Source: a candidate division SR1 bacterium (GTDB lineage: Bacteria; Patescibacteriota; JACMRA01). Taken from it: 64,000 bases of DNA. The notes under the pieces were generated by a model. The model searched no databases. It was not told where the DNA came from and saw only the letters and a program-made list of their open reading frames with translations. Shown piece by piece: positions 25,730-46,621 of this stretch. The position numbers and the translations under genes are program-made. Location of the stretch: contig JACMQI010000036.1 of NCBI GenBank assembly GCA_014377045.1, positions 1-64,000 on the forward strand, given 5' to 3'. How positions within the stretch are numbered: the first letter of the stretch is position 1; each line of letters opens with the position of its first letter.

Positions 25730-27034
25730 ATGCTCATCTCTATTCTCATTTATCCAACTATTTGGTTGTCAAAAATTTTATACAGACTTACATTACTTAC
25801 CAAAAGAGGTAGTGGAACTTCCCTACCTGGTCTATTTGTTGAAAAGTATATTCCTTGGATTTTGGGTTATTTTAATGGTAAGTTCGACGAGATTATCATG
25901 GTTACTGGCACAAATGGGAAAACTACCACTCGTGCATTGATCGCTCATATATACGAAGCAAATGACGTCAATATAGTCACTAATCGTGGTGGAGCAAATA
26001 TTTTTCGTGGAATAGCGAGTAGTTTAATGCTTGACGTTGATATCTGGGGAAGAACAAAATCTAAAACCCTCATATTAGAAGTTGAAGAGGCTACCCTACC
26101 CAAGCTTACTATGTATATCAAACCAAACAAACTCATTTTTACCAACATATTTCGTGACCAGCTAGATGCTTATGGTGAAATAGATCATACTCTAGATTTT
26201 TTTAAAAATGCTATTGCAAACTGCAATAAAAATCTCGAAATTATCATAAATAAAGACGATACTAAATTGCTTACCATAATACCACCAAATAAGCAAGTCA
26301 TTTTTTTTGGTCTTGGAGACGATATACAAAAACCTAATTACGAAAAAAATAATACTATTGTCGATATCAGATCGCATCCTGCCTTTTTTGCAACAAAAAT
26401 AACATCACTATCAGATAATAGTACAAATATAGAGGTTCAAAACGGGGCAAATACTTATAGCATAAACACACTATTACCTGGTAACTATAATGTATATAAT
26501 GTGTTGGCGGCTCTAGCTGTGACTTATCATAAGTTTGGAAGAAATGCATTTGAACCTATCAGTTATTTCCAGCCTGTTTTTGGTCGAGGTGAAGAAATAC
26601 AGGTAGGTAAGGCTAAATTTTGTATGCACTTAGTGAAAAATCCTGCTGGTTTTGATGAAGTACTAAACCATATTCGTAGCACAAATCAAAATAGTTCTAT
26701 AAGCATAGCTTTTCTTATAAATGACAATATCGCCGATGGTAAAGATATGTCGTGGCTTTGGGATATCAATATCGAAAACTTTATCACAAATCAAAAAATT
26801 TCCCAGATACACACCAGTGGTCAAAGAGGTCTAGATATGATGCTACGAATGGAGTATGCAGGAGCAGTAGTCAATATCGACAATCATTACAGCAATATAG
26901 AAAATATGATTGACGATTTTTCAAAACACAATAAAGTCTATTATATACTTTCAACTTATACTGCCCTACTTAAAGCCCGCAGCATATTGGAGCAATATAC
27001 AACTCTAACTAAAATCACTGATTCTGGAAACTAA
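25730..27034 (+). CDS. murT: MurT-like Mur ligase family protein
   Basis: A 434-residue Mur ligase with the P-loop MVTGTNGKTTTRALIAHI, and the MurT signatures TNRGGANIFRGIASSL, EVEEATLPKL and FTNIFRDQLDAYGEIDHTL, plus a C-terminal DUF1727-like region. Known MurT works with the glutaminase GatD to amidate lipid II D-Glu. Two oddities: no gatD is adjacent, and the Cys4 zinc-ribbon inserted in typical MurT is missing (the stretch between the central and C-terminal parts has no Cys cluster). A hydrophobic N-terminus (about 1-20) is also typical of the family. A related Mur ligase of different substrate is possible. Confidence 0.8.
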   Translation: MLISILIYPTIWLSKILYRLTLLTKRGSGTSLPGLFVEKYIPWILGYFNGKFDEIIMVTGTNGKTTTRALIAHIYEANDVNIVTNRGGANIFRGIASSLMLDVDIWGRTKSKTLILEVEEATLPKLTMYIKPNKLIFTNIFRDQLDAYGEIDHTLDFFKNAIANCNKNLEIIINKDDTKLLTIIPPNKQVIFFGLGDDIQKPNYEKNNTIVDIRSHPAFFATKITSLSDNSTNIEVQNGANTYSINTLLPGNYNVYNVLAALAVTYHKFGRNAFEPISYFQPVFGRGEEIQVGKAKFCMHLVKNPAGFDEVLNHIRSTNQNSSISIAFLINDNIADGKDMSWLWDINIENFITNQKISQIHTSGQRGLDMMLRMEYAGAVVNIDNHYSNIENMIDDFSKHNKVYYILSTYTALLKARSILEQYTTLTKITDSGN

Positions 27035-28174: not shown

Positions 28175-28951
28175 TTAATCATCGCCTACATTATCATTAT
28201 TTAAACTAAGTAATGTTACACTGTTTTTAAAATCTATAATTCGAGAATTCTGATCTTTTATATTAAACGAATACTCGCTAGAATTCTGCCCTTTTTGATT
28301 TATTTTAGTAATATTTTCGTCTATAAAATTTTCAGTTTTAGCATTTCTGAATTCTGGTTCTGAAATTTGAGCAAATGTGTAACCTTGATCATTTTTTATA
28401 AAGCCCAGCCAATATATTTTGTCGTTTGTTCTGAAACTTGAAAGATAATATAATCCTAAATCAGCAACAATATATTTCATTTTTGTTTTAATTATAGTGC
28501 ATCTATTTGCACAAATACTTTTACTTAAATCGATGTTATAAAATTTTGATTCTAGCTTTAAAGTTTTTATGTTTTCACGACTAACACTATAAACTATACT
28601 TCCATCCAAAAGTGTATCAACTTTATATTTTTCAAGTTCCACCTCTTTTTCAAAATCTGTAAAAGTCCTGTACTCATCAAATTCTGATGATATACCAAGT
28701 GGACTATCAGAAATTGCTGTAGTAGTATTACTTGTATTACTTTTTACGATTCCACTTTGAACAATATTTTTAGCTGTCTGTTTGAGATCCTGATCCCCAA
28801 TAACCTCATTATTCGCACTTTCAATCGCTTTTTCAACAGTCAAATTATTATCACTTTTAGGCTTATCAAAAAAAACCGTTGTAATCAATACAACAATTAC
28901 ACCAATAGAAAATAGTGTGGCTGCCGCGATTATTAGTTGTTTAGTCGACAT
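28175..28951 (-). CDS. membrane-anchored hypothetical protein downstream of the 2103-residue protein
   Basis: A 258-residue protein with one N-terminal membrane helix (about 7-28) and an exported domain. It contains CANRC, probably a disulfide, and beta-rich segments such as IYWLGFIKNDQGYTFAQISE. No family recognised. It starts 13 bp after the stop of the giant multidomain protein and has no promoter of its own, so they form an operon. A partner, regulator or self-protection factor for the giant enzyme is a reasonable inference, not shown by sequence. Confidence 0.75.
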   Translation of the reverse strand: MSTKQLIIAAATLFSIGVIVVLITTVFFDKPKSDNNLTVEKAIESANNEVIGDQDLKQTAKNIVQSGIVKSNTSNTTTAISDSPLGISSEFDEYRTFTDFEKEVELEKYKVDTLLDGSIVYSVSRENIKTLKLESKFYNIDLSKSICANRCTIIKTKMKYIVADLGLYYLSSFRTNDKIYWLGFIKNDQGYTFAQISEPEFRNAKTENFIDENITKINQKGQNSSEYSFNIKDQNSRIIDFKNSVTLLSLNNDNVGDD

Positions 28952-28964
28952 AAATATTAAAATT

Positions 28965-31900
28965 TTATTTTAATTCACTTTTAATTTCATTTAAAAATTT
29001 AGTTATAGGATTGCTTAGTTTAAAAGTATATATTGGATCACCTTCTAAAAGTCCATCGGTTTTTATATTGTAAATCATGGTTACGTAATAAACTTTACCC
29101 TCTATGCTAAGCTTTGAAGAAATTCCTAATACCGAACTTGTATTTCCATGTTTGAACGCTTCGACATATTGAGCGCCTTGGAATTTGTGAGGGTTAGTTT
29201 TTAAAGCTTCCTTGGCTATGTCATAACCACCTCCACTATTATTAAATATATCTATAAATGCTTTATTAGTATCTTCAACACTTGCATTTCGTTTACCACC
29301 ACTATCCATTCCAGGCATATTAGAATTTGCTGTAAACCACCTATTAAACGAAACTGAACTATAGCCTACTACCTTTGCCTTAGCATCAAAGCCTCTAGGA
29401 TTTGGTCCACCAGCTGCATCCATACCACCCACTTCTTTCATCAAAGCATTTGCAGCCGTATTATTTGAATCATTCAGCATTGTTTTAAGTAAATCACCAA
29501 TAGCTACAGTTTGATTTTTTGTATACGTTTTTTCATCTGGTAACCAAATATCTGACGATAGCGTCAACTGTTTATTTAAATCTATATTATTCTTTAAAGC
29601 GACTGACGCAATAATAACTTTGAAAATCGATGCACCTGTTACAGGCTGACTACCATTTATTTGTTTTATTACTTTCCCGGATTCATCTGTAATTATTAGA
29701 TTTGCAGGTGGATTTTTAGATATCGCTTTTGAATTTGCTCCTAAGTTTGATGTGGTCGAAACAGTAGGGCATGGCGCTAAAGCTGTAACTCCATTTATTC
29801 CCTTATACGCAACACTGGATGCCTTTGCTAATCCAATATGAATGTGATTATGGTGTCCGTTTGTTGTACCTACTGGTGCTGGAGCTTGCCTCAAACCTTG
29901 ACTCAAATCAGTGCTATGACCTTGAAATGTTTTGCCTTTGTATTTTGCTGAAAGGCTGGCTGCAATTTTATCTGTAGTAAATAATTGCTGAACTCCATTA
30001 TCCCTAATAGTGCCTGTCGACACAGCCGCCTCTGCAACTTTTGTAATTATATCAGTCGCTTCTTGTGCAATCGTCCCGTTAGATGAAAACAAATCTATGT
30101 GCCTCTTTATTCTTGGATCTGATTTATTACCTTCTGAGCCTGGGTCTGGGCCTAAAAATGGTAATGGTGCGTATCCTCCATCCATCTTACCAAATGGTTT
30201 TTTTGCTCCTTCTACCTCTGAAACCTTTGCAAATGCCCAAAAATCAACAGCAGATCCTTCACCTGTTGTACGGTGATCTCCATATGACCTAGTAAGATCA
30301 AGTGGGCCACCAATCCAAGTTATACCTAAATTATAATACAAGTCATACATAAATTGTATCATATTGTCATCAAAATCTTTTTCATATCCAGATCTATCAC
30401 TTACTTGAGGATTTTCACCCTGACCAATATATTTTGCATCAAAAAGTTGCGTGAGTTTTTTACGTTTTTCTGCAACTGTCGTCGCTGACTGTGCGTTCAC
30501 ATTTACGGAACCAAATGAACCTGTGTTTTCTAAAGATGGAATAAAATCTAATCTATTAAATAATTTTACTGTTTTCCCATCTGTAGCTGGTGTTGGGGTG
30601 GTAGTTGGTGCTGGAGTTGATGGTTGGGTACAAGCACATGAAGACGATGATGAGTTACTAGCAGTCGTTGCCCCACCAATCTGGAACGAAGTGAGCGGTG
30701 TAGACAGTTTATATTTATCATTGCCCACAAATTGCCAGTGCCAAGGTTCAAATCCTGCGCCTTTATTTGAGCCCTTTGGATAAGATTCTTTAAATCCATA
30801 TATTGTAGCATTTACTTTTAGCCAAGTGTAACCGCTAGTTGACTCAAAGCGATCTTCTATTGGGCTAAAGTCAACAGCTAATCCAGTGCTATGTTGACTA
30901 TAAGATGGAGGTGCGGAGACAGTACCACGAGCCAGATATTCAGCTTTAACTTCCTTCAATTCATCTGGTGTGAGGTTTGAACTCCAATACTTAGAGATTG
31001 GTTTTGTAACTCCACTAGAAGTGAAATAAGTACCTACTTGAGTATCGTATGACCTATAAGTTACTCCAACCTCAAGTTTCCCTCCTGAAGCTGATACCAT
31101 AGCGGCTAAAGCAGTTTCCATCTCTGTATTTTTACCACCTGCGTCTTTGTACTGCTCATATCCCCTGGTATCTGCAATTTCTTTAAGGAAAGCAAGGTAC
31201 TTAGTGTCGCTTTTTATGGTGCTGTATGATGCTGGCTTAGTACCATACGCAGCATTTACATAAACACCCTGCAGTAATCCGTTTAATATATTTTGACTTA
31301 TATTATTATCAGTTTTAAGCTGTGCTAATTCAGTAGTTTGGTGTACTGACTCGATAAATGCACTAGATTTATATACAGCAAGACGCTTCTCATAATATGA
31401 TTTATATGTGGCAAGATCAGCTTTACTTTGTTTAGTATCTGCATGTCTATATCCACCGATTACTGGAGCAGATGCCCATTCAGCACTTGCAATTCCTACA
31501 GCTCGTTCAAAATTAGATGTTAACAATTCTTGAATTGATCCATTTTCTTTATTTGTATCAACTGCTCTATAGTACCACCTTCCAACTGCAAATAAATCTT
31601 GATTTTTAGCATCAAATCCAACCACCTCTGTAAGTCCTTTTTTCTTTAGAAAAGTGTTGGCCTCAGTACGATCACCAACTGGTAAGACTTGATATCTACC
31701 ACCATTTCCAGGTGAGTCAATTTGAGGGTAAGATGTTGCATATTTAGTTGAATCAAAAACGTTTGGTTTGTAGTTACCCGAATTATATGATACTAATCCT
31801 AACTTATCAGAACCTTCAGCTTCCCAATTTGCTATGGTGTCTAAAAACGCTCTTACTTCAGGAGTAAATACCTCACCTTTTGATACAGTTCCTGGGCCAG

Positions 31901-34900
31901 TTGCAGTACCTATATTTCCACTGCCGCTACTATTTCCCCCTCCACAAACGCAATCATTGGCACTTGCTGTACTTCCTGATAAACCTTTGCCTGCAGTCAC
32001 TGTGGCAGATGGGTCGAACCGCAAATCATAATGATTTTCGTGGATAGCTCCGTATATAGGGTTAGACTTATCATCTCTAATTATCCTAGTTCCAGTCATG
32101 TAAGAGTCTGTCGATATTTTATCAAATATTTTACCTCCTGATATAATCCAAAGTAAAACGCTAGTATCTTTTGCCGATTTAGCTAACTCATAAAATGCTT
32201 CTATAGCAGAGGAATCTCCATCATTTGCTGATTGGTGAATGTATACTTTACCTTTATAACTTACTGAATCAATATCAACTTTTTGTCCTGAACCATGGCC
32301 ACTTGTAGGGTTATCACCAGCTCTATAAGCACTGCTAATCTGAATCCAGTCGAATTTTCCTGAATTCACTATTGAGATCATACCTTTTAAAGTGTTTGGT
32401 TCAAGCACTTTTTTTTCAATTTGAGTTTTTAAAGAATCTCGACTTGGGCTAACAATTTGGATTACATCTTTTATTTTTCCAGAATCAATCAATCCTATTA
32501 CTGTTTTGTCTTCATCGCTATATATAAAGTTACCTGGTGTAGCAGCTTCTACATCAATTCCATTCAAAATACGAGTCAAAATATTACCGTTTTGTTCTTT
32601 ACCTATTGGTTTTAGAGAATCCTCATCTTTACGATTTAATCGATCTTTAACTTGATTTATAAGAGTGGCTTTGAGATTATTCATTCTTGAATCACTAGTA
32701 TTTTCTGCCAATTGATCAACAATTTTATCTATACCATCCTTATTATCTACTTTTGCTGATTGATTAGGTACCGGAGTGGTCCCTTCTCCTAAACACTTTA
32801 CTACATCAGCAGCTCGATTTAGTGTATCAGTGCCATAATCTTTTCCTGTAGTGCTTGAATCACCATTTTTAGCACCACTAAAGCCTGCATTATTAGCAGC
32901 TAGTAACCTTATCCACCAAGCTTTGGATCCTTTAGGTCCCGCAGTAGCAATTTGCTTACTATACAGCTTTTCTAGTTCTACTACATGGTATGCTACATAT
33001 CGAATACCACTTTCACATTCATTCCAAATAAATGGTTGACCATTTTTATCTTTTACAACAGTAGGAGTACCTAAAGGCATATTTTTCGTACCTGCACTTC
33101 CCCAAGCTCCAGAGGTAGGATCTATCTGACCCAGACCATGACCAGCACCACTATCTCCATAACCAGCACAGCCCTTAGGCACATTACCTTCTCCAACATC
33201 ACTCTCACGAGACATTATCGCACCGATAATAGGACTAGGTATACCGTAGTCAGCACTTGCTTTATCTATAAACGATTTATACTCTTTCAATTTTGCACAT
33301 TGAGAAGAAGTAATTTTACCCGTTGGAGTACCATACTCTGCACTGATTGAGCCACCAGAGGTTCCACTAGTTCCCGGATTACATTTATCAGGACTTTTAT
33401 CAGGACATATACCGCCTTTATTATAAAATACATTTTTATAAAGCTCAGAATGAGTGGCTATAGCATCTCCGACCTTAGCCGCAACTCCGCCAGCTACAGG
33501 TATTCCATCTGCTGCTTGGATTAAATTCTTTTCATCTCCTGTAAGAGCATATTCGATAATACCACGAACGACTGGTCTAGGTGTACAATATGCATCTACT
33601 AAAATGGCTGAAAAAATAGCTATAAATAGGACAACTGCGATTATAAAAGGTATCAAAAAACCTGATATTCCAGCTAAAGCTCCTCCTATAGAGCTTGCTA
33701 TAGACGATGCTACGCTTCCCGCTGCTTGTGCCGCTCTTGCAGCTGCTTGTGCAGCTCTTTTAGCAGCTTCCTTTGCTGCTTTTTGTGCATACTCCTTGAG
33801 TTTATCCTCTGCAGCCTGTTTTGCGGCTCCACCAGGATCTTGTGCTATATTTTTTGCTACATTTAATTTATTACCTGCATCGTTTAGTCTACTTCCTATC
33901 TTTGACCTATCTCCTACTTTGGAATTATCATCAGACACTAGAGTATCTTTAATATTTTCCTTTGATGAAACTTTATTTTTTAAATTATCAGATTTTTGAC
34001 CAAACGGCTCAGATTCAGTATTTGTAATAGATTTAGAATCCGTATTTTCACTTATATCAGGCGTATTTTGAAATTGTGATTGTTTTTTTTCTTGATCTAA
34101 TGTTCGTTGTTCAGCCACGCTTTCCTTGGTAGGTGTTGTGTCACGATTGCTATCTGTATAATCTTTCCATTGCTGGTCTTCAACTTTAGAGTTTGCATTC
34201 TCTTCTTTTTCTTGTGTAGCTCGTTTTTCATCTTCTGCTTGTTGTTGTCTTAGCCTATCTACACTGGCTTTGTTTGCTGCATCTATTTTAGGATCTCCTG
34301 TGGGAGCATAGTCAGCATAGTTTGAAGATCCGTTATTATTAGTGCTAGAATTAGCTACGGGTATAGACGAATCTTTACCTTCTAATAAATTATCTTCGTT
34401 ATTTGGTTGTAGTGATTCAGTTTGATTATCAGTTGATTGTAAATCATCATTATTTACATATTGGTTCGAATTTATATTATCATCGCGTTTTCCAAGCTCT
34501 TTATCTAATTGATTTTTAGTAAATTCCTCACTGACTTCATTTCTAGTTGGTGCGGTGTCTCGCTTACCATTTTGGTAATCATCCCACTGCTTATCAAATA
34601 TTTCATCTTTTGCACTATCTTCCTTTTCTTGTTTTTCTTGTTCTTCCTGTCTTATTCTATTTTGTATTCCCTGATTTGTATCTTCTTTTTGTCTAAATCT
34701 TGCAATTTCAGCTCTATTTGCAACATTCTCAGTAGTATTTCCAGTAGAAGTATAGTCTATATAATTTGAACCATCAGCAATACCAACGGAATCAGTCTCA
34801 CTAGGGTCTACAAAATTGCTTTTATCATCAAAAGTCTCTTGGTCTTCTTCATTAATAACTTTTTTATTGTCAGTTTTGCTTTCTTTTTCTGTACTTTTCT

Positions 34901-35276
34901 CATTCTTTTTTTCTTCGGTAGAGCCATCTTTTGAAACTTGTATAGTCGAATTTGGCAACTCTTGTTTTTCTTGTGTTTCACTATTATCACCTCCAATTGT
35001 CGGATCTTGTGAATCTTCATTAGATTCTTTTTGTTTGTCTTCTATATTTTCTTCATCTGGCTCTTTTTCAAATGTGTCATTAGGTTGATTCGCTATATCT
35101 TGTCGTTCTTTTTTTATTTCTGTATCTAATTTTTGTTTTTCTTGATCCAATATTTTAATAGCATCCTCTATATCTTTTTTACTCAAGCTACTAGAAGCTA
35201 CACCTCCTTTCGGGTTAGTTCCATCGGATCCAGAAGGTGTATTTTGTTTTGGTTTTGGTTTATCTTCCAAACTCAT
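28965..35276 (-). CDS. giant membrane-anchored multidomain peptidoglycan-active protein
   Basis: A 2103-residue protein. Residues 1-480: charged, low complexity, with two related blocks (170-260, 318-398). 483-527: Ala-rich helix; 532-561: membrane helix. The exported part carries, in order: lysozyme-like transglycosylase (657-830, Glu691); Zn D-Ala-D-Ala peptidase-like domain (975-1090: His994, Asp1001, His1082); lambda-R/GH104-like lysozyme (1136-1303, EG at 1154-1155, GGRYQ); VanY-type D,D-carboxypeptidase (1358-1520: QHSTGLAVDF, EPWHWQF); MepA-like LAS endopeptidase (1566-1818: His1668, Asp1678, HNHIHIGL); class A beta-lactamase-like serine hydrolase (1853-2103: SIFK at 1883-1886, SNN at 1937-1939, KHG at 2042-2044). 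Domains are joined by Ser/Gly/Pro linkers. Catalytic residues are present in each, but activity is inferred. It could act on the cell's own wall or on another cell's. Confidence 0.9.
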   Translation of the reverse strand: MSLEDKPKPKQNTPSGSDGTNPKGGVASSSLSKKDIEDAIKILDQEKQKLDTEIKKERQDIANQPNDTFEKEPDEENIEDKQKESNEDSQDPTIGGDNSETQEKQELPNSTIQVSKDGSTEEKKNEKSTEKESKTDNKKVINEEDQETFDDKSNFVDPSETDSVGIADGSNYIDYTSTGNTTENVANRAEIARFRQKEDTNQGIQNRIRQEEQEKQEKEDSAKDEIFDKQWDDYQNGKRDTAPTRNEVSEEFTKNQLDKELGKRDDNINSNQYVNNDDLQSTDNQTESLQPNNEDNLLEGKDSSIPVANSSTNNNGSSNYADYAPTGDPKIDAANKASVDRLRQQQAEDEKRATQEKEENANSKVEDQQWKDYTDSNRDTTPTKESVAEQRTLDQEKKQSQFQNTPDISENTDSKSITNTESEPFGQKSDNLKNKVSSKENIKDTLVSDDNSKVGDRSKIGSRLNDAGNKLNVAKNIAQDPGGAAKQAAEDKLKEYAQKAAKEAAKRAAQAAARAAQAAGSVASSIASSIGGALAGISGFLIPFIIAVVLFIAIFSAILVDAYCTPRPVVRGIIEYALTGDEKNLIQAADGIPVAGGVAAKVGDAIATHSELYKNVFYNKGGICPDKSPDKCNPGTSGTSGGSISAEYGTPTGKITSSQCAKLKEYKSFIDKASADYGIPSPIIGAIMSRESDVGEGNVPKGCAGYGDSGAGHGLGQIDPTSGAWGSAGTKNMPLGTPTVVKDKNGQPFIWNECESGIRYVAYHVVELEKLYSKQIATAGPKGSKAWWIRLLAANNAGFSGAKNGDSSTTGKDYGTDTLNRAADVVKCLGEGTTPVPNQSAKVDNKDGIDKIVDQLAENTSDSRMNNLKATLINQVKDRLNRKDEDSLKPIGKEQNGNILTRILNGIDVEAATPGNFIYSDEDKTVIGLIDSGKIKDVIQIVSPSRDSLKTQIEKKVLEPNTLKGMISIVNSGKFDWIQISSAYRAGDNPTSGHGSGQKVDIDSVSYKGKVYIHQSANDGDSSAIEAFYELAKSAKDTSVLLWIISGGKIFDKISTDSYMTGTRIIRDDKSNPIYGAIHENHYDLRFDPSATVTAGKGLSGSTASANDCVCGGGNSSGSGNIGTATGPGTVSKGEVFTPEVRAFLDTIANWEAEGSDKLGLVSYNSGNYKPNVFDSTKYATSYPQIDSPGNGGRYQVLPVGDRTEANTFLKKKGLTEVVGFDAKNQDLFAVGRWYYRAVDTNKENGSIQELLTSNFERAVGIASAEWASAPVIGGYRHADTKQSKADLATYKSYYEKRLAVYKSSAFIESVHQTTELAQLKTDNNISQNILNGLLQGVYVNAAYGTKPASYSTIKSDTKYLAFLKEIADTRGYEQYKDAGGKNTEMETALAAMVSASGGKLEVGVTYRSYDTQVGTYFTSSGVTKPISKYWSSNLTPDELKEVKAEYLARGTVSAPPSYSQHSTGLAVDFSPIEDRFESTSGYTWLKVNATIYGFKESYPKGSNKGAGFEPWHWQFVGNDKYKLSTPLTSFQIGGATTASNSSSSSCACTQPSTPAPTTTPTPATDGKTVKLFNRLDFIPSLENTGSFGSVNVNAQSATTVAEKRKKLTQLFDAKYIGQGENPQVSDRSGYEKDFDDNMIQFMYDLYYNLGITWIGGPLDLTRSYGDHRTTGEGSAVDFWAFAKVSEVEGAKKPFGKMDGGYAPLPFLGPDPGSEGNKSDPRIKRHIDLFSSNGTIAQEATDIITKVAEAAVSTGTIRDNGVQQLFTTDKIAASLSAKYKGKTFQGHSTDLSQGLRQAPAPVGTTNGHHNHIHIGLAKASSVAYKGINGVTALAPCPTVSTTSNLGANSKAISKNPPANLIITDESGKVIKQINGSQPVTGASIFKVIIASVALKNNIDLNKQLTLSSDIWLPDEKTYTKNQTVAIGDLLKTMLNDSNNTAANALMKEVGGMDAAGGPNPRGFDAKAKVVGYSSVSFNRWFTANSNMPGMDSGGKRNASVEDTNKAFIDIFNNSGGGYDIAKEALKTNPHKFQGAQYVEAFKHGNTSSVLGISSKLSIEGKVYYVTMIYNIKTDGLLEGDPIYTFKLSNPITKFLNEIKSELK
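34083..34325 (-). repeat. second copy of the cytoplasmic repeat block in the giant protein
   Basis: Codes for residues 318-398. Shared landmarks with the block at 34497-34769: SNYxDYxxTG, an AxRxRQ-like helix, a Q/E/K-rich stretch, and QWxDYxxxxRDTxPT. The copies have diverged, so this is an old internal duplication. Confidence 0.75.
34497..34769 (-). repeat. first copy of the cytoplasmic repeat block in the giant protein
   Basis: Codes for residues 170-260, with SNYIDYTSTGN at the start and QWDDYQNGKRDTAPT towards the end. It pairs with the block at 34083-34325. Confidence 0.75.
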
Positions 35277-35378: not shown

Positions 35379-35786
35379 TTACTTTACATATTTGACTACA
35401 AAATCTTCGAAATACATGGGTACAAAATCACCCGTTGTATTTAGAATTGACATACTTGCGATACCTCTTGCGATAGAATCATAAGTCAAACCAGCTTCCA
35501 TAATTTGGAAAGTAGATTGCCTATATCTTAAATAAGGTTCAAGGGCAACTCTAATTTTTTCAGCTTCTCTTTCTTTATTTGCACAAATACCAACCGTAGC
35601 TAATAATGTCCCGCAAGAAATAGATGGTCCAAAAATATATTTGATCATTATTTGACTTGCACTCAAACCCTGAGTTGGAATTAAAACACAAAATAATAAC
35701 AATACAGTAGAAAAAATAGATTGAAAGAAAAGCCAAAAAAGCATTTGCTTGATCGGACTTTTCGTCTTTGTAGTTTTGATATTCAA
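35379..35786 (-). CDS. hypothetical small membrane protein
   Basis: About 135 residues: a basic N-terminus, two hydrophobic segments (FWLFFQSIFSTVLLLFCVL and a weaker one around IFGPSISCGTLLATVGI) and a soluble C-terminal half. No family recognised. The frame opens with GTG at 35825, but that codon lies inside the promoter; the first usable in-frame start after the predicted +1 is TTG at 35786, and an ATG follows at 35744. The start is therefore uncertain. It is transcribed alone. Confidence 0.55.
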   Translation of the reverse strand: MNIKTTKTKSPIKQMLFWLFFQSIFSTVLLLFCVLIPTQGLSASQIMIKYIFGPSISCGTLLATVGICANKEREAEKIRVALEPYLRYRQSTFQIMEAGLTYDSIARGIASMSILNTTGDFVPMYFEDFVVKYVK

Positions 35787-35815
35787 AATTTTACCTAATA
35801 TTAAACTATCTGCTA

Positions 35816-35844
35816 AATGTATCACTCAAAATCACTTTTGTCAA
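35816..35844 (-). promoter_or_regulatory. promoter of the 35379-35786 gene
   Basis: TTGACA (35839-35844), 17-bp spacer, TACATT (35816-35821). It overlaps the GTG at 35825 and so excludes that start. Confidence 0.7.
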
Positions 35845-35982: not shown

Positions 35983-36018
35983 TTAGCACTTGACAAGTTT
36001 GGTTGCTAATGTTAATAT
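35983..36018 (+). promoter_or_regulatory. CIRCE-like operator overlapping the dnaK promoter
   Basis: TTAGCACTT (35983-35991), 9-bp spacer, GGTTGCTAA (36001-36009). The HrcA operator CIRCE is TTAGCACTC-N9-GAGTGCTAA: 8/9 and 7/9 bases match with exact spacing, and the outer six bases are perfectly inverted. The promoter TTGACA (35990-35995), 17 bp, TAATAT (36013-36018) lies across it, the usual geometry for repression. Confidence 0.75.
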
Positions 36019-36062
36019 TTGTCCAAAGTAAATTATACTTTATTAATCAAATTAATCTTAAT

Positions 36063-37967
36063 ATGTCTATAGTTCTAGGAATCGATTTAGGTACTACAAA
36101 CTCAGCAATGGCTTACGTGGTCGCTGGTAAACCAAAAATCATCGAAAATGCAGAAGGTAATCGTACCACTCCATCTGTTTTTTATTATAATGTTAAAGAT
36201 GGTTCTGTATCCATCGGAGAAGTTGCAAAACGAAACAGCGTGTTAAACCCAGAAAATACTTTTTACGAAGCAAAACGTTTTATAGGCCACAGTTATAGCG
36301 ACGGTGATGTGACTCGCGACAAATCATTGATGCCTTTTAAAGTTTCCGATGATTCAGGTAAGATTAAGCTCGAGACAAAAGATGGTAAAAAATTTGCTCC
36401 AGAAGAAGTATCTGCTGCAATTTTACGCAAATTGAAGACCGATGCAGAATCCAAGCTCGGTCAATCTATCTCAGAAGCGGTCATTACAGTACCAGCATAT
36501 TTTAATGATGCACAGCGACAAGCTACAAAAGATGCTGGTGAAATTGCTGGACTCAAAGTGCTCCGTATAATAAATGAGCCAACAGCAGCTGCTCTTGCAT
36601 ATGGGTTTGAAAAGGGTCAAGACGAAAAAGTACTTGTATATGATCTAGGTGGCGGTACATTTGATGTGACCGTGCTCGATATTTCAAACGAGACTATCGA
36701 AGTATTGGCTACCAATGGTGATACTCATCTTGGAGGACATGATTTTGATAAAAAAGTTATCGAATATATTATGGCCGATTTCAAAAAAGAAACTGGTGTA
36801 GATCTTATTAGCGATAAAGCCGCAATTCAACGTATTAAAGAGGCTTCAGAAAAAGCAAAACATGATCTTTCTACTCAAAATGAACACCAAATTAATTTAC
36901 CATTTATAACTATGGGAACTGATAATCAACCACAGCATTTATTGGTAAACCTGACTCGATCTAAGCTCGAAGAGTTAGTTGGTGATTTAGTTGAAAAAAC
37001 TATGGAACCAGTTAAAAAAGCACTTGCTGACAGCGGTTTAGATAAAGGTCAAATCAATGAAATTATTATGGTTGGAGGTATGACTCGTATGCCATTAGTT
37101 CAAAAGACTGTAGAAGAATATTTTGGTAAAAAACCAAACTTGAGTGTAAACCCCGACGAAGTAGTTGCCTTAGGAGCTTCTATCCAAGGTGCGGTATTGA
37201 AAGGCGATGTAAAAGACATCTTGCTTCTTGACGTTACCCCTCTTACTCTTGCCATCGAGACAGCTGGAAATATTGCAACAGCCATGATCCCACGTAATAC
37301 TACTATTCCGACAAGTAAAAGCCAAATCTTTTCTACATATGCTGATAACCAAACAGCAGTTGATGTTCACGTAGTTCAAGGCGAGCGTCCGCTTGCAATA
37401 GACAACAAATCTTTAGGTAAATTTACTCTTTCTGGAGTAGCTCCAGCACCACGAGGCGCTCCACAAATTGAAGTTACTTTTGACCTTGATGCTAATGGTA
37501 TTCTCAAAGTTACTGCAGCTGATAAAGGAACTGGGAAAGAGGCAAATATCACTATTACAGGATCTTCTACTCTAACTGAAGAAGAAAAGCATAAAGCAAT
37601 TGAAGAAGCAGAGAGACAGAAAGATGCTGATCTTGCTAAAAAAGCAAAAATTGAAGCTAAAAATAATGCAGAATCATCTATTTTCCAAACTGAAAAACTC
37701 GTCAAAGACATGGGCGATAAGCTAAGCAGTGAAGATAAAGAAGGCGTAAATAAAGTCAAAACTGAATTAGAAGACTTGGTAAAAAAAGAAGGTGCATCAA
37801 AAGATGATTTAGAAGCTAAAACTAAGGAGCTACAAGATGCATTGATGAAAGTCGGTGAAAAAATCTATAGTTCTAGTGAAGCTAATACACCTAGTGAAGC
37901 TACTGAAGAAAAACCAGCTGATGACACACAAGATGTTGAAGCAAAAGCAAAAAAAGAAGAAAAATAA
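36063..37967 (+). CDS. dnaK: molecular chaperone DnaK (Hsp70)
   Basis: A 634-residue Hsp70 with [17 protein letters not shown] at the N-terminus, [34 protein letters not shown], and a substrate-binding domain with [14 protein letters not shown], ending in an acidic/basic low-complexity tail without the EEVD-like motif. I chose the ATG at 36063: an in-frame ATG at 36003 falls between the -35 and -10 boxes. A CIRCE-like operator suggests HrcA control. No grpE or dnaJ is adjacent. Length and motifs are standard. Confidence 0.97.
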
Positions 37968-39106: not shown

Positions 39107-40813
39107 TTAAGGATAAATATAATATTTGCTAACATCAAATGTACTACTTTTCAAAGCACTATTGGGATCATACAAGTTGATCAAATCGATTAATTTTTTA
39201 GTTTCATCTGCGTCAATTTCACTATAGTTTTGATATTTAGATATAACACTTTTTTGATTAATTTCATAATCTTTGAGTATGCTTGAAAGCTCACTATTAG
39301 CTCGACCATCTGAACCAGTACTATTTCTTATATAATCAATACTCTGATTTATACCGTCTAAAACATCTTTTTTTTCTGATTCGCTAAACTTAGAAGTGTC
39401 TATAACTAAACTGGCAAGCGGGAGATTTTTAAAGCCTACACCTTGAACTAACGATTTGTCTTTATTTACTCTTGAAATTCCAAGCTCATTTTCAATATCA
39501 GAAACGAATGGCTCAGGCCCCAAAAAACTTTCAATAAAACCTGTCTTAATACTTTGAACTAGAGATAAAGGATCGTTTGAAGATGTATAGGTAATATTGG
39601 AAGTATTTACACCACTTTTGAATAGACTAAAATCTAGCCCTGATTTGATAAGTGAATTATTTGGATAGTATCCTACAATAGAATTTTCCAATCCTTTTAA
39701 ATTATCTAACGAATTAACTTTTTTACCAATTAAAAATAAGGAGGGGCTAGATGGGCTCTCTACTAACTGAGCAACCATACGTAGTTTACTATTTTTCTCA
39801 ATTCCAGTAAGAGCATTTGGCATATCAATGAAACCAGCTATATCAGCTTTTCCTGCCTGTAGTGTATCCATAGCTTGTAAACCGCTACCAGTTTGTACTA
39901 GCGAAAAATTAAGAGAATTAAATTTTTTAATATACACCATTAGTGGTAAATTTGCAGTAGCCGAATAAGTCACAATCACACGCTTTTTAGAAAAAAATGA
40001 AAATGAACTGAGATATGAACCTGCAGAAACGAAAATCAGAGTAATCAAAATAATCCAGATAGTAGCCTTCTTTATGTCCCATATAAATCTGCTGAACGCC
40101 TGAATAATTACTAACTCGAATAAAAAAGTAATCCCAATTATTAACAATAAATACGAATATAACTCACCAGTTTTATAAAGTTGCTGGAATTGTAATAACC
40201 TTACTCCTATTCCTGATTTTCCGCCCAATATCATTTCGACTATAACCTCTATACTCAGTACCCAGATAATCAAAGTAGGTATAACTCGATACCCGAGATA
40301 GTTTGACATTGGAAATAGAAACTTCCAAAATCTTTGCCACGGAGTGATCACCCACGAAATTCTAACAAATTCGTACGCCTTTTCCTCCTTTTCAATTAGG
40401 GAAAAATTATGCTGTAGTAGAATAGTAAACGTTGCGAGCGCAACAAGAAAAATATTAACAGCAGAGCTCAGTCCAAAAAATAATATACCTATAGGAATTA
40501 GCGCAGGAAGGGGAATATATTTTAATATAGTATTGATAAATCTTATGAAATAAGCAAAAAACGAAGAATAAAAAGATATAATAAGTAATGTATAAACTAT
40601 AAAATATCCAATGACAACTCCAATACAAATGTTAGAAAATGTAGTAAACAGGTCAATCGCAAATAACAACCAGAAACTTTTATTAAAAAACACTTCTAAT
40701 ATGTTCAGTGGGCTTGGTAAAAATGCCTTGTTAATATATCCTAAATAAAAAAATGACTGCCATACAGTGACAAATAAGCTGATTATTAGTCCAAAACTAT
40801 ACCATTTCTTCAT
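39107..40813 (-). CDS. ABC transporter permease fused to a substrate-binding domain
   Basis: A 568-residue protein. Residues 1-270 form a TauC/SsuC-type permease with about six to seven membrane helices and the coupling-loop region EFVRISWVITPWQRFWKFLFP. Residues about 280-568 form an exported periplasmic-binding-protein-like domain of the NMT1/TauA type (VTYSATANLPLMVYIKK, QTGSGLQAMDTLQAGKADIAGF, FLGPEPFVSDIENELGI). In known systems these are separate proteins. It overlaps the ATPase gene by 17 bp. The family suggests uptake of a small sulfonate, nitrate, thiamine-precursor or similar compound; substrate not determinable. Confidence 0.82.
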   Translation of the reverse strand: MKKWYSFGLIISLFVTVWQSFFYLGYINKAFLPSPLNILEVFFNKSFWLLFAIDLFTTFSNICIGVVIGYFIVYTLLIISFYSSFFAYFIRFINTILKYIPLPALIPIGILFFGLSSAVNIFLVALATFTILLQHNFSLIEKEEKAYEFVRISWVITPWQRFWKFLFPMSNYLGYRVIPTLIIWVLSIEVIVEMILGGKSGIGVRLLQFQQLYKTGELYSYLLLIIGITFLFELVIIQAFSRFIWDIKKATIWIILITLIFVSAGSYLSSFSFFSKKRVIVTYSATANLPLMVYIKKFNSLNFSLVQTGSGLQAMDTLQAGKADIAGFIDMPNALTGIEKNSKLRMVAQLVESPSSPSLFLIGKKVNSLDNLKGLENSIVGYYPNNSLIKSGLDFSLFKSGVNTSNITYTSSNDPLSLVQSIKTGFIESFLGPEPFVSDIENELGISRVNKDKSLVQGVGFKNLPLASLVIDTSKFSESEKKDVLDGINQSIDYIRNSTGSDGRANSELSSILKDYEINQKSVISKYQNYSEIDADETKKLIDLINLYDPNSALKSSTFDVSKYYIYP

Positions 40814-44455: not shown

Positions 44456-45148
44456 ATGAAAACACTACTAGTAAGCTCTTTAATAAGTCTTACACTACTA
44501 AATTCAGGATTCTCATACGCTCCAAACAATAAAATCAAGGAGTACGATAATACTGAACTAAAACAAATAATTGCTATTTCGGACTATAAACCAAGGTCTA
44601 TAGATTTAGGTATATCAAAAATATCATCCAATTTAGAAAAAATTAAGGAAGATGAAGCTCGTAAAATTGAAGAACAAAAAAAGATAGAGGAAGAAAATCG
44701 ATTGAGAGAAGAAGAGCGTAATCGTCAAATTGAGGAAGAAAAGCAGGCAAAATCCAAACAAGAAATTGCTACTGCAAATAAAATAGCATCTATGAGGCAG
44801 CAGTCCGTAGTAAAAGCACCCGAACCCGCTGTCAGTACTGTAGTACCAGCTGGAGATTTACAAGCATATGCCAAAAACCGTGTATGTGAAGTATTTGGAT
44901 GCGATCAATGGGACGCCTATTACTATATTATTGATAAAGAAAGTCACTGGAATTACCTTGCAATCAATAAATCATCAGGAGCTGGTGGTTTATGCCAAGC
45001 CTTACCATTTAGTAAAATGGCTACAGCAGGATCCGACTATACTACCAATCCAAATACTCAAACCGAATGGTGTATTTCATATATCCAATCCAGATATAAA
45101 AATCCCTTAGGTGCAAAAGCTTTCTGGATAGCCAATTATTGGTTTTAA
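44456..45148 (+). CDS. secreted coiled-coil protein with lysozyme-like (Apf-type) domain
   Basis: A 230-residue protein: signal peptide (1-22), an E/K/R-rich coiled coil (about 60-110) and a C-terminal transglycosylase-like domain of the aggregation-promoting-factor type (IIDKESHWNYLAINKSSGAG, GLCQALPFSKMATAGSDY, NTQTEWCISYIQSRY). The Glu in DKESHW is the expected catalytic residue. A TATAAT at about 44408 precedes it without a good -35 box. It is followed by a PcsB-like protein, a functional cluster for wall remodelling or daughter-cell separation. Confidence 0.82.
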   Translation: MKTLLVSSLISLTLLNSGFSYAPNNKIKEYDNTELKQIIAISDYKPRSIDLGISKISSNLEKIKEDEARKIEEQKKIEEENRLREEERNRQIEEEKQAKSKQEIATANKIASMRQQSVVKAPEPAVSTVVPAGDLQAYAKNRVCEVFGCDQWDAYYYIIDKESHWNYLAINKSSGAGGLCQALPFSKMATAGSDYTTNPNTQTEWCISYIQSRYKNPLGAKAFWIANYWF

Positions 45149-45198
45149 GTTTAACTGGCAACACTTAAATTTTATCTTAACAAATAGAAATTTAATAT

Positions 45199-45227
45199 TT
45201 GACATAGCTATAAAAAGCATATAATAT
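45199..45227 (+). promoter_or_regulatory. promoter of the PcsB-like gene
   Basis: TTGACA (45199-45204), 17-bp spacer, TAATAT (45222-45227). It covers a TTG at 45227 and so excludes it as a start. Confidence 0.72.
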
Positions 45228-45256
45228 TGTTTTCGAAAATCACTAACAAAACCAAT

Positions 45257-46621
45257 ATGAATTTTTTGCATAAAAAAAATACTTACAAAACTGTATCAAT
45301 TGCAATATTGCTCACCTCGCTTATAGCTTTAGTGGGACATCAAAATATTTCTACTCTTGCTCAGTCTGAAGTGCTTAAATCAAAATATGATCAGCAAAAA
45401 TCAGAAATCGATCAAAAAATTAGCAATATCAGCGGTCAAATTAACACATTAACAGGAGATCTAGATAATGTATCGGCGCGAAAAAATTCTTTAGCAGAGC
45501 AAGTGAATGAAATGAAAACTGAAATAAATAAAACAGAAAGTCTTATCACCGATACAAAAATTGCAATTAGTAAACTTGAAGAACAGATTTCAGAAAATCA
45601 AAAAAAAATTACAACACTGGAGGGAGACATGAAAAATCTAGTCAGGGAAATCCAGAAACAGGATAAAAATAGTCCACTTGAAGCAATCCTATCAAGTAAA
45701 AATCTCGGTGAAATTTTAAGTAATGCTTATAATTTATCTTCTATTCAAGAAAAAGCAGCTAGAATCAATAAGCAGCTAGAATTAGCAACAGAAGAACTTG
45801 ATCAAAATAAAAAACAACAAGAAGACACTGAAAAAGCTCTCAATGATACTCAATTTTTATTAAATAGTAAAAAAGATTCACTCAGCACCCTTCTCATCGA
45901 AACCCAAGGACAAGAAGATCGATATCAAAAACTAATTAAAGCTTCAAATGAACAGAAAAAAACTGTAGTTGCTCAATCTTTCCAGGTAGACGCTGATTTC
46001 AAATCAGCTGTAACAAAAGAAAATGAAGAGTTAGAAAGACAAAAACGAGCTGAGGCAGAAGCTAAAGCTGAAACAAATAAAAGTAATCGAAATCCAATAA
46101 CATCCAATGGTGACACTAGCCAAGGAGCCTACGGATATGAGACAAATGGTGCTGGATGTAGTTTTACTGAAAAAGGTAAGCTTACAGCTCCAGCTGGATA
46201 TTTTATTTGGCCAACAAATGGCTATGTATCACAGAGTTATGGTTGCCCTAGTAGTGCTGGAGGCAGTCACGATGCCTTTGATATTGCAAATTCATCAGGT
46301 ACCCCTCTTTTTGCTATTGCAGCTGGGTCGGTGATGCAAAAAGGTTTTCATGCTGGAGGATTTGGTAATTTTATTATTATAAGACATGTTTTACCTAGCG
46401 GTCAGCGTGTTTATTCTCTTTATGCACATATGTTGCAGCCCTCTACAGTCTCAGGAGTGGTAAGTCAAGGACAAACTATAGGTTATATGGGTTCTACTGG
46501 TAGCTCTACAGGTACACACACACATTTTATGTTAATTTCTGATAGTATAGAGACTACTGGAAGTGTAGGATGTAACTATGGAGGTTCTAAGTGTTTTGAC
46601 CCAGCTACGTTTTTACCATAA
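45257..46621 (+). CDS. EnvC/PcsB-like coiled-coil M23 metallopeptidase
   Basis: A 454-residue secreted protein: signal peptide (about 1-38), a long coiled coil (about 45-270) and an M23/LytM domain. The zinc motifs look intact: GGSHDAFDIA (HxxxD), SLYAHM and THTHF (HxH). EnvC-like proteins usually have a dead LytM domain and act as activators, whereas this one could be an active endopeptidase. ATG 45257 was chosen because a TTG 30 bp upstream is part of the -10 box. The secreted nuclease gene follows after 12 bp. Confidence 0.9.
   Translation: MNFLHKKNTYKTVSIAILLTSLIALVGHQNISTLAQSEVLKSKYDQQKSEIDQKISNISGQINTLTGDLDNVSARKNSLAEQVNEMKTEINKTESLITDTKIAISKLEEQISENQKKITTLEGDMKNLVREIQKQDKNSPLEAILSSKNLGEILSNAYNLSSIQEKAARINKQLELATEELDQNKKQQEDTEKALNDTQFLLNSKKDSLSTLLIETQGQEDRYQKLIKASNEQKKTVVAQSFQVDADFKSAVTKENEELERQKRAEAEAKAETNKSNRNPITSNGDTSQGAYGYETNGAGCSFTEKGKLTAPAGYFIWPTNGYVSQSYGCPSSAGGSHDAFDIANSSGTPLFAIAAGSVMQKGFHAGGFGNFIIIRHVLPSGQRVYSLYAHMLQPSTVSGVVSQGQTIGYMGSTGSSTGTHTHFMLISDSIETTGSVGCNYGGSKCFDPATFLP

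Follow-up and report, generated by a model that had tools for sequence, protein, structure and literature searches.

In a 64,000-nt stretch of contig JACMQI010000036.1 from a candidate division SR1 bacterium of the Patescibacteriota (hereafter, the window), we analyzed a giant gene on the minus strand at positions 28965-35276, an open reading frame (ORF) with an ATG start, 2,103 codons and zero internal stops. The sequence-only reading of this window had described a single uninterrupted frame here without stating its strand, and the frame was borne out. The Patescibacteria are largely uncultured; a scan with DnaK gave distant matches only, the best to Candidatus Microgenomates at 55%, and together with genome size and T4SS content it pointed to this group. 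The encoded protein (the giant), a predicted anchored wall hydrolase with an open frame and with syntenic orthologs in two sister genera (G001 and G004), is assigned by sequence analysis four supported modules, namely a goose-type lysozyme-like domain (A), a GH104 lysozyme (C), a VanY carboxypeptidase (D) and a serine DD-peptidase/beta-lactamase-fold domain (F), and two candidate metallopeptidases (B and E). We propose, with a probability of roughly 55%, that the giant is an expanded, module-shuffling enzyme of VirB1/PrgK-like type that opens the wall for a type IV secretion system (T4SS), acting on the cell's own wall and/or that of a host. This association is suggested because the anchor of the giant groups with anchored proteins encoded next to VirB4 and PrgI, many of them wall hydrolases, and because its orthologs exchange modules at one locus.

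The giant begins with a charged, Cys-free region (residues 1-527, 33696-35276; all features of the giant are on the minus strand), predicted to be cytoplasmic from its composition, Cys positions and sequence. A single membrane helix had been claimed for the protein, and hydropathy agrees, with one strong hydrophobic segment at about residues 534-564 (33585-33677); the sole other hydropathy window over a mild cut-off falls within domain F. The first of 12 cysteines lies at residue 564, the outer end of the helix. The predicted topology is a cytoplasmic N-terminal part and, beyond the helix, an ectodomain of ~1,540 residues. The anchor segment (residues ~478-640, 33357-33845) comprises an Ala/Lys-rich stretch, the helix and a Cys-bearing juxtamembrane part; it is conserved in the three giants, and its N-terminal half resembles proteins beside VirB4. 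Further cysteines mark linkers of CxC type between domains B and C (Cys 1109 and 1111, 31935-31958) and between D and E (Cys 1547 and 1549, 30624-30644). Such inter-module linkers (CxC or CxxC) are common to the giants of the window genome, G004 and G001. By eye, the N-terminal region also contains two similar repeats of ~85 residues (residues ~168-258 and ~316-396; 34503-34775 and 34089-34331), both with SNYxDY at the start and a QWxDY core.

The anchor was searched against samples of the phylum, using the anchor-plus-A segment and then a profile built from the anchors of the three giants. These searches gave 13 genomes with matches outside the family. In 10 of them VirB4 was encoded within the fetched stretch around the match, in comparison with one of 18 control stretches, and several matched proteins directly followed VirB4. 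The remaining three matches are a protein of G185 on a short contig with dnaA-, dnaN- and recF-like genes, and two short, unrelated-looking ORFs. Several of the anchor-matched, VirB4-adjacent proteins bear M23, C39 or NlpC/P60 domains at their C-terminal end. The source genome itself encodes, on other contigs, VirB4 (6.9e-192; C- and N-terminal parts), PrgI and T4SS pilins. The anchor similarity suggests a partnership between the giant and a T4SS.

Patescibacteria T4SS are thought to be repurposed. They are chromosomal, mostly lack a relaxase and are related to monoderm conjugation machinery; in Ca. S. epibionticum, epibiotic growth requires a peptidase and a lysozyme whose genes immediately follow virB4, and Patescibacteria VirB1 homologues are often located away from virB4 (PMC12102498). 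At L061:9377-16807 (G000:C40) a DnaA-like gene adjoins VirB4, followed by a TsaD-like gene, a T4SS pilin and two similar genes, an order that agrees with the published placement of Patescibacteria T4SS near the origin. Another locus, L062 (G000:C41:1-20000), is possibly a mobile element; its products include a ParA-like protein, a C39 peptidase with a membrane anchor and a second ATPase of VirB4/TraG-like type.

Orthologous giants were identified in G001 and G004; the remaining family assemblies (G002, G003 and G005) are incomplete, and no copy of the giant was seen at their dnaK or MurT borders. The window genome, G004 and G001 share one gene order: dnaK, giant, small membrane protein, MurT, SecE/NusG. 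In the window, the syntenic borders are dnaK (36003-37967, plus strand) and a MurT-like ligase gene on the opposite side (25730-27034, plus strand), and a 258-aa small membrane protein is encoded directly downstream of the giant (28175-28951, minus strand). G004 has a membrane protein at this position and G001 a related one, with weak alignment (18-21%). The G004 giant is an uninterrupted ORF of 1,859 codons with a C-terminal M23 peptidase (4.6e-26); two genes lie between it and dnaK, and the membrane protein and then MurT lie on its other side. The ~700 residues ahead of the M23 domain (L150:8900-11100) are without a family match, and one stretch of this region, which may be a decayed module, shows weak similarity to the beginning of a VanY domain. 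The G001 giant begins near dnaK on contig C25 and runs on into C49; these contigs overlap by 207 nt at 99% identity and differ only in homopolymer lengths. Its modules are GH104-like and E-like on C25, and B-like, DPBB (4.9e-14) and M23 (1.3e-17) on C49, followed in turn by the downstream protein of weak similarity, by MurT and by NusG. The G001 copy contains frame breaks. We considered decay as their cause, but sequencing error is more likely, given that the overlapping contigs differ only in homopolymer lengths. On G001 contig C25, near dnaK, lie genes for two small proteins that look secreted and have many QNQ repeats (L030:7283-8466).

The anchor is homologous among all three giants, and the catalytic modules set upon it, as assigned from sequence, vary between the sister genera. 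The search for the same architecture in related genomes, suggested together with the first description, recovered orthologous giants with a conserved anchor, but the exact module order was not seen elsewhere; whole-protein scans of genome contigs and viral contigs gave zero relatives of the giant. Among the anchored wall hydrolases known from Patescibacteria, this variant is unusual in how many modules it has and in that sister genera exchange them at a single locus.

Four modules of the giant are supported by sequence or profile searches. Domain A (residues ~650-830, 32787-33329) matches goose-type lysozymes in phmmer (E 1.2e-8), with the SRES region and its E691 inside the alignment, and is classified as goose-type lysozyme/transglycosylase-like. 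Domain C (residues ~1125-1306, 31359-31904), a GH104 lambda-type lysozyme, carries the catalytic Glu of this family and its GRYQ and WAS-P motifs. The domain C profile, built with phage and G001 relatives, matched phage lambda lysozyme (3d3d/1am7) at 2.5e-16 and a phage hub (8kea) at 1.3e-85; in a separate search, domain C matched 8kea at 1.6e-18. Domain D (residues ~1389-1518, 30723-31112) scores over the Pfam gathering score for VanY (1.7e-21) and has the full HxxxxxxD...ExxH set of VanY (M15B): H1462, D1469, E1510 and H1513. Domain F (residues ~1859-2103, 28968-29702) scores above the Pfam gathering thresholds of Beta-lactamase2, S11 and S13 and shows the SxxK, SxN and KxG motifs as SIFK, SNN and KHG, the last a variant of KTG; its assignment to the class A beta-lactamase/S11/S13 superfamily does not imply beta-lactamase activity. 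A phage origin of the whole protein was also considered and rejected, as the best phage matches are confined to domain C, and D and F have only weak single-domain matches.

Domains B and E are candidates. Domain B (residues ~925-1095, 31992-32504) is a candidate LAS-type metallopeptidase with an HxxxxxxD...HxxH pattern (H994, D1001 and H1079/H1082 in HENH) and relatives in G003 and G001. Domain E (residues ~1613-1830, 29787-30440) is a candidate LAS/MepA-like metallopeptidase with an H...D...HxH pattern (H1668, D1678 and HxxHxH at 1808-1813) and a conserved relative in G001. Pairwise profile comparison weakly linked B to VanY (E 0.001, versus 0.83 for an unrelated domain) and to domain E (1.1e-6 across 73 columns), and in a direct comparison with E. 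coli MepA little aligned outside the HxH region. Both domains had zero matches in Pfam scans and in profile searches of Protein Data Bank (PDB) sequences. AlphaFold models of A+B and of E were of low confidence and had no PDB fold matches, the A+B alignment being poor in the A part; they neither favor nor disfavor the assignments. G003 (L006:1294-2451, contig C3) also encodes a B-type domain in a free-standing protein that is probably secreted; two similar C-terminal repeats of ~70 residues follow the domain and look peptidoglycan-binding-like by eye.

The sequence-only reading had listed six wall-active domains with visible catalytic or metal residues in each. For A, C, D and F this description was upheld, with SRES/E691 in A and intact residue sets in C, D and F; for B and E, labeled D-Ala-D-Ala peptidase-like and MepA-like, the motifs and relatives were recovered, and neither profile nor fold searches confirmed the labels. 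The number of domains left unsupported is two, fewer than the three or more at which that reading was to be given up. The further claim that one polypeptide covers each bond type of peptidoglycan is not supported, as Pfam scans of the whole protein and of its segments found no amidase, CHAP, NlpC/P60 or glucosaminidase domain in the giant. The evidence does support its picture of a wall-active protein with several domains and a membrane anchor, made by a bacterium that is reduced and probably depends on a host.

Among known systems, the giant is close in plan to PrgK of pCF10 and the monoderm VirB1-like proteins (TraG of pIP501, TrsG, CD419), each of which is likewise a membrane-linked protein with several wall-hydrolase domains outside the cell. 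The lysozyme/SLT-type domain of these proteins has counterparts in domains A (goose-type) and C (GH104). Cysteines in the extracellular part, one of which mediates dimerization in PrgK (PMC11323569), are also present in the giant, and a T4SS is encoded in the same genome. The giant differs from them in having six modules rather than two or three, and in the variation of modules between orthologs. Nor is it encoded in a virB4 neighborhood: VirB4, PrgI and the pilins of the source genome are on other contigs. Since it lacks CHAP and NlpC domains and lies outside a virB4 locus, we do not file the giant as a member of this group, even if its sequence suggests that it would act like a VirB1/PrgK enzyme.

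The virB4-adjacent anchored proteins of Patescibacteria (L033, L052-L057, L183-L186) share with the giant a charged N-terminus, an Ala/Lys-rich stretch and a membrane helix, and most carry a wall-peptidase domain (M23, C39 or NlpC/P60), so that the architecture agrees while the similarity is modest. Unlike the giant, they are mostly 320-570 aa long (904 aa in L057), have one or zero recognized catalytic modules, and are encoded beside VirB4/PrgI. As to single modules, domain C shares fold family and catalytic motifs with phage lambda lysozyme and the cyanophage hub lysozyme (8kea), but is one module of a chromosomal giant; domain D shares the full metal and catalytic residue set of VanY D-Ala-D-Ala carboxypeptidases, but sits inside a multi-enzyme chain. 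We know of no described wall hydrolase with this many catalytic modules, although the literature was not exhaustively searched.

In the mechanism that we propose, the giant would serve the dispersed type IV secretion-like machine of the cell (VirB4, PrgI, T4SS pilins) in the role that VirB1/PrgK plays in monoderm conjugation. The charged cytoplasmic tail and the anchor would place the string of wall enzymes next to the secretion channel, where the lysozyme modules would cleave glycan strands and the peptidase modules would cut or trim stem peptides. The opened wall would let the channel or pilus through, at the site of host-cell contact and/or across the cell's own wall. In this scheme the topology, the T4SS partnership, what each module does and which wall it acts on are inferred. 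The giant offers a concrete candidate for the part that opens the wall when Patescibacteria breach or engage the walls of their hosts. A more tentative extension, possible but rather doubtful, is that the conserved chromosomal locus serves as a module-exchange platform, in which a fixed T4SS-type anchor carries a genus-specific string of wall enzymes tuned to the host wall, and the architecture records host specificity in uncultured epibionts. The module content of giants could be compared with host wall chemistry.

Several observations weigh against a T4SS-associated role. Neither in the source genome nor at the two loci of the orthologs does the giant lie near virB4. Beyond the family, the anchor shows modest similarity (E about 1e-6 to 1e-3), which involves mainly the Ala/Lys-rich helical segment and the membrane helix and could come partly from shared composition. 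Against 1,642 ORFs from 112 loci, the three-giant anchor profile matched only the giants and 11 proteins from the anchor searches, but these loci include those fetched as anchor matches, which makes this a specificity check that is not fully independent. The giant also lacks the CHAP or NlpC/P60 domains typical of monoderm VirB1, as well as LytM. Modules B and E stay unconfirmed, with labels at the level of motifs and weak profile-pair support. Of the three hydrolase domains of PrgK, only SLT is active in vitro and the others down-regulate it (PMC11323569); by analogy, the module count of the giant need not equal its activity count, and some modules may be regulatory or inactive. Finally, the computed evidence fits self-wall and host-wall targets alike. 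An attack or penetration device and a self-wall remodeling factor, the two roles offered by the sequence-only reading, are recast as two possible targets of T4SS-associated wall opening.

Each of these roles can also be taken apart from secretion. The giant might be a remodeling factor for the cell's own wall in growth or division, with the anchor simply holding the modules at the membrane. Wall synthesis by the cell itself is indicated by the MurT and MltG/YceG genes in the window, the locus lies amid housekeeping genes (dnaK, MurT, SecE, NusG) and outside any T4SS cluster, and modules of carboxypeptidase type (VanY, S11-like) typically belong to wall maturation. We nevertheless regard this role as unlikely: the anchor is like that of proteins beside VirB4, module content shifts from one sister genus to another, contrary to expectation for a conserved housekeeping role, and the window holds further wall enzymes of ordinary size. 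Module exchange could instead track different hosts, as expected if the giant were a contact-dependent device that attacks the host wall without a T4SS, its long ectodomain spanning the gap and digesting the wall of the partner. Two lysozyme types plus peptidases on an ectodomain of such length would suit this role, and an action on host walls has been proposed for wall hydrolases of Patescibacteria, for example in Vampirococcus (PMC8080830). This explanation, too, seems improbable to us, as the giant is predicted to be membrane-tethered rather than released and has an anchor of the kind seen at T4SS loci, no system for self-protection was identified and the host is only presumed.

Separate genes joined in assembly, or a degenerate fusion, might be suspected from the frame breaks in the G001 copy and from the source assembly, which is fragmented and 86% complete (1.04 Mb in 42 contigs, the contig of the giant being 68.7 kb). 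This is very improbable. Uninterrupted frames of 2,103 and 1,859 codons occur at the same locus in two genera, the catalytic residues are intact in C, D and F, and the two G001 contigs disagree over their overlap in homopolymer lengths only. An in-frame assembly join, the outcome named earlier as a possible refutation, is made very unlikely by the syntenic orthologous giants in G001 and G004.

Other genes in the window include a 148-aa membrane protein with no assigned function upstream of the giant (35379-35825, minus strand). Of two adjacent wall-related genes at 44456-46621, one encodes a protein like the C-terminal part of aggregation-promoting factor and the other an EnvC-like M23 protein. 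At 39107-40813, a 568-aa protein looks like a fusion of an ABC permease with a substrate-binding domain of NMT1-like type (a weak Pfam match), and an ABC ATPase gene adjoins it.

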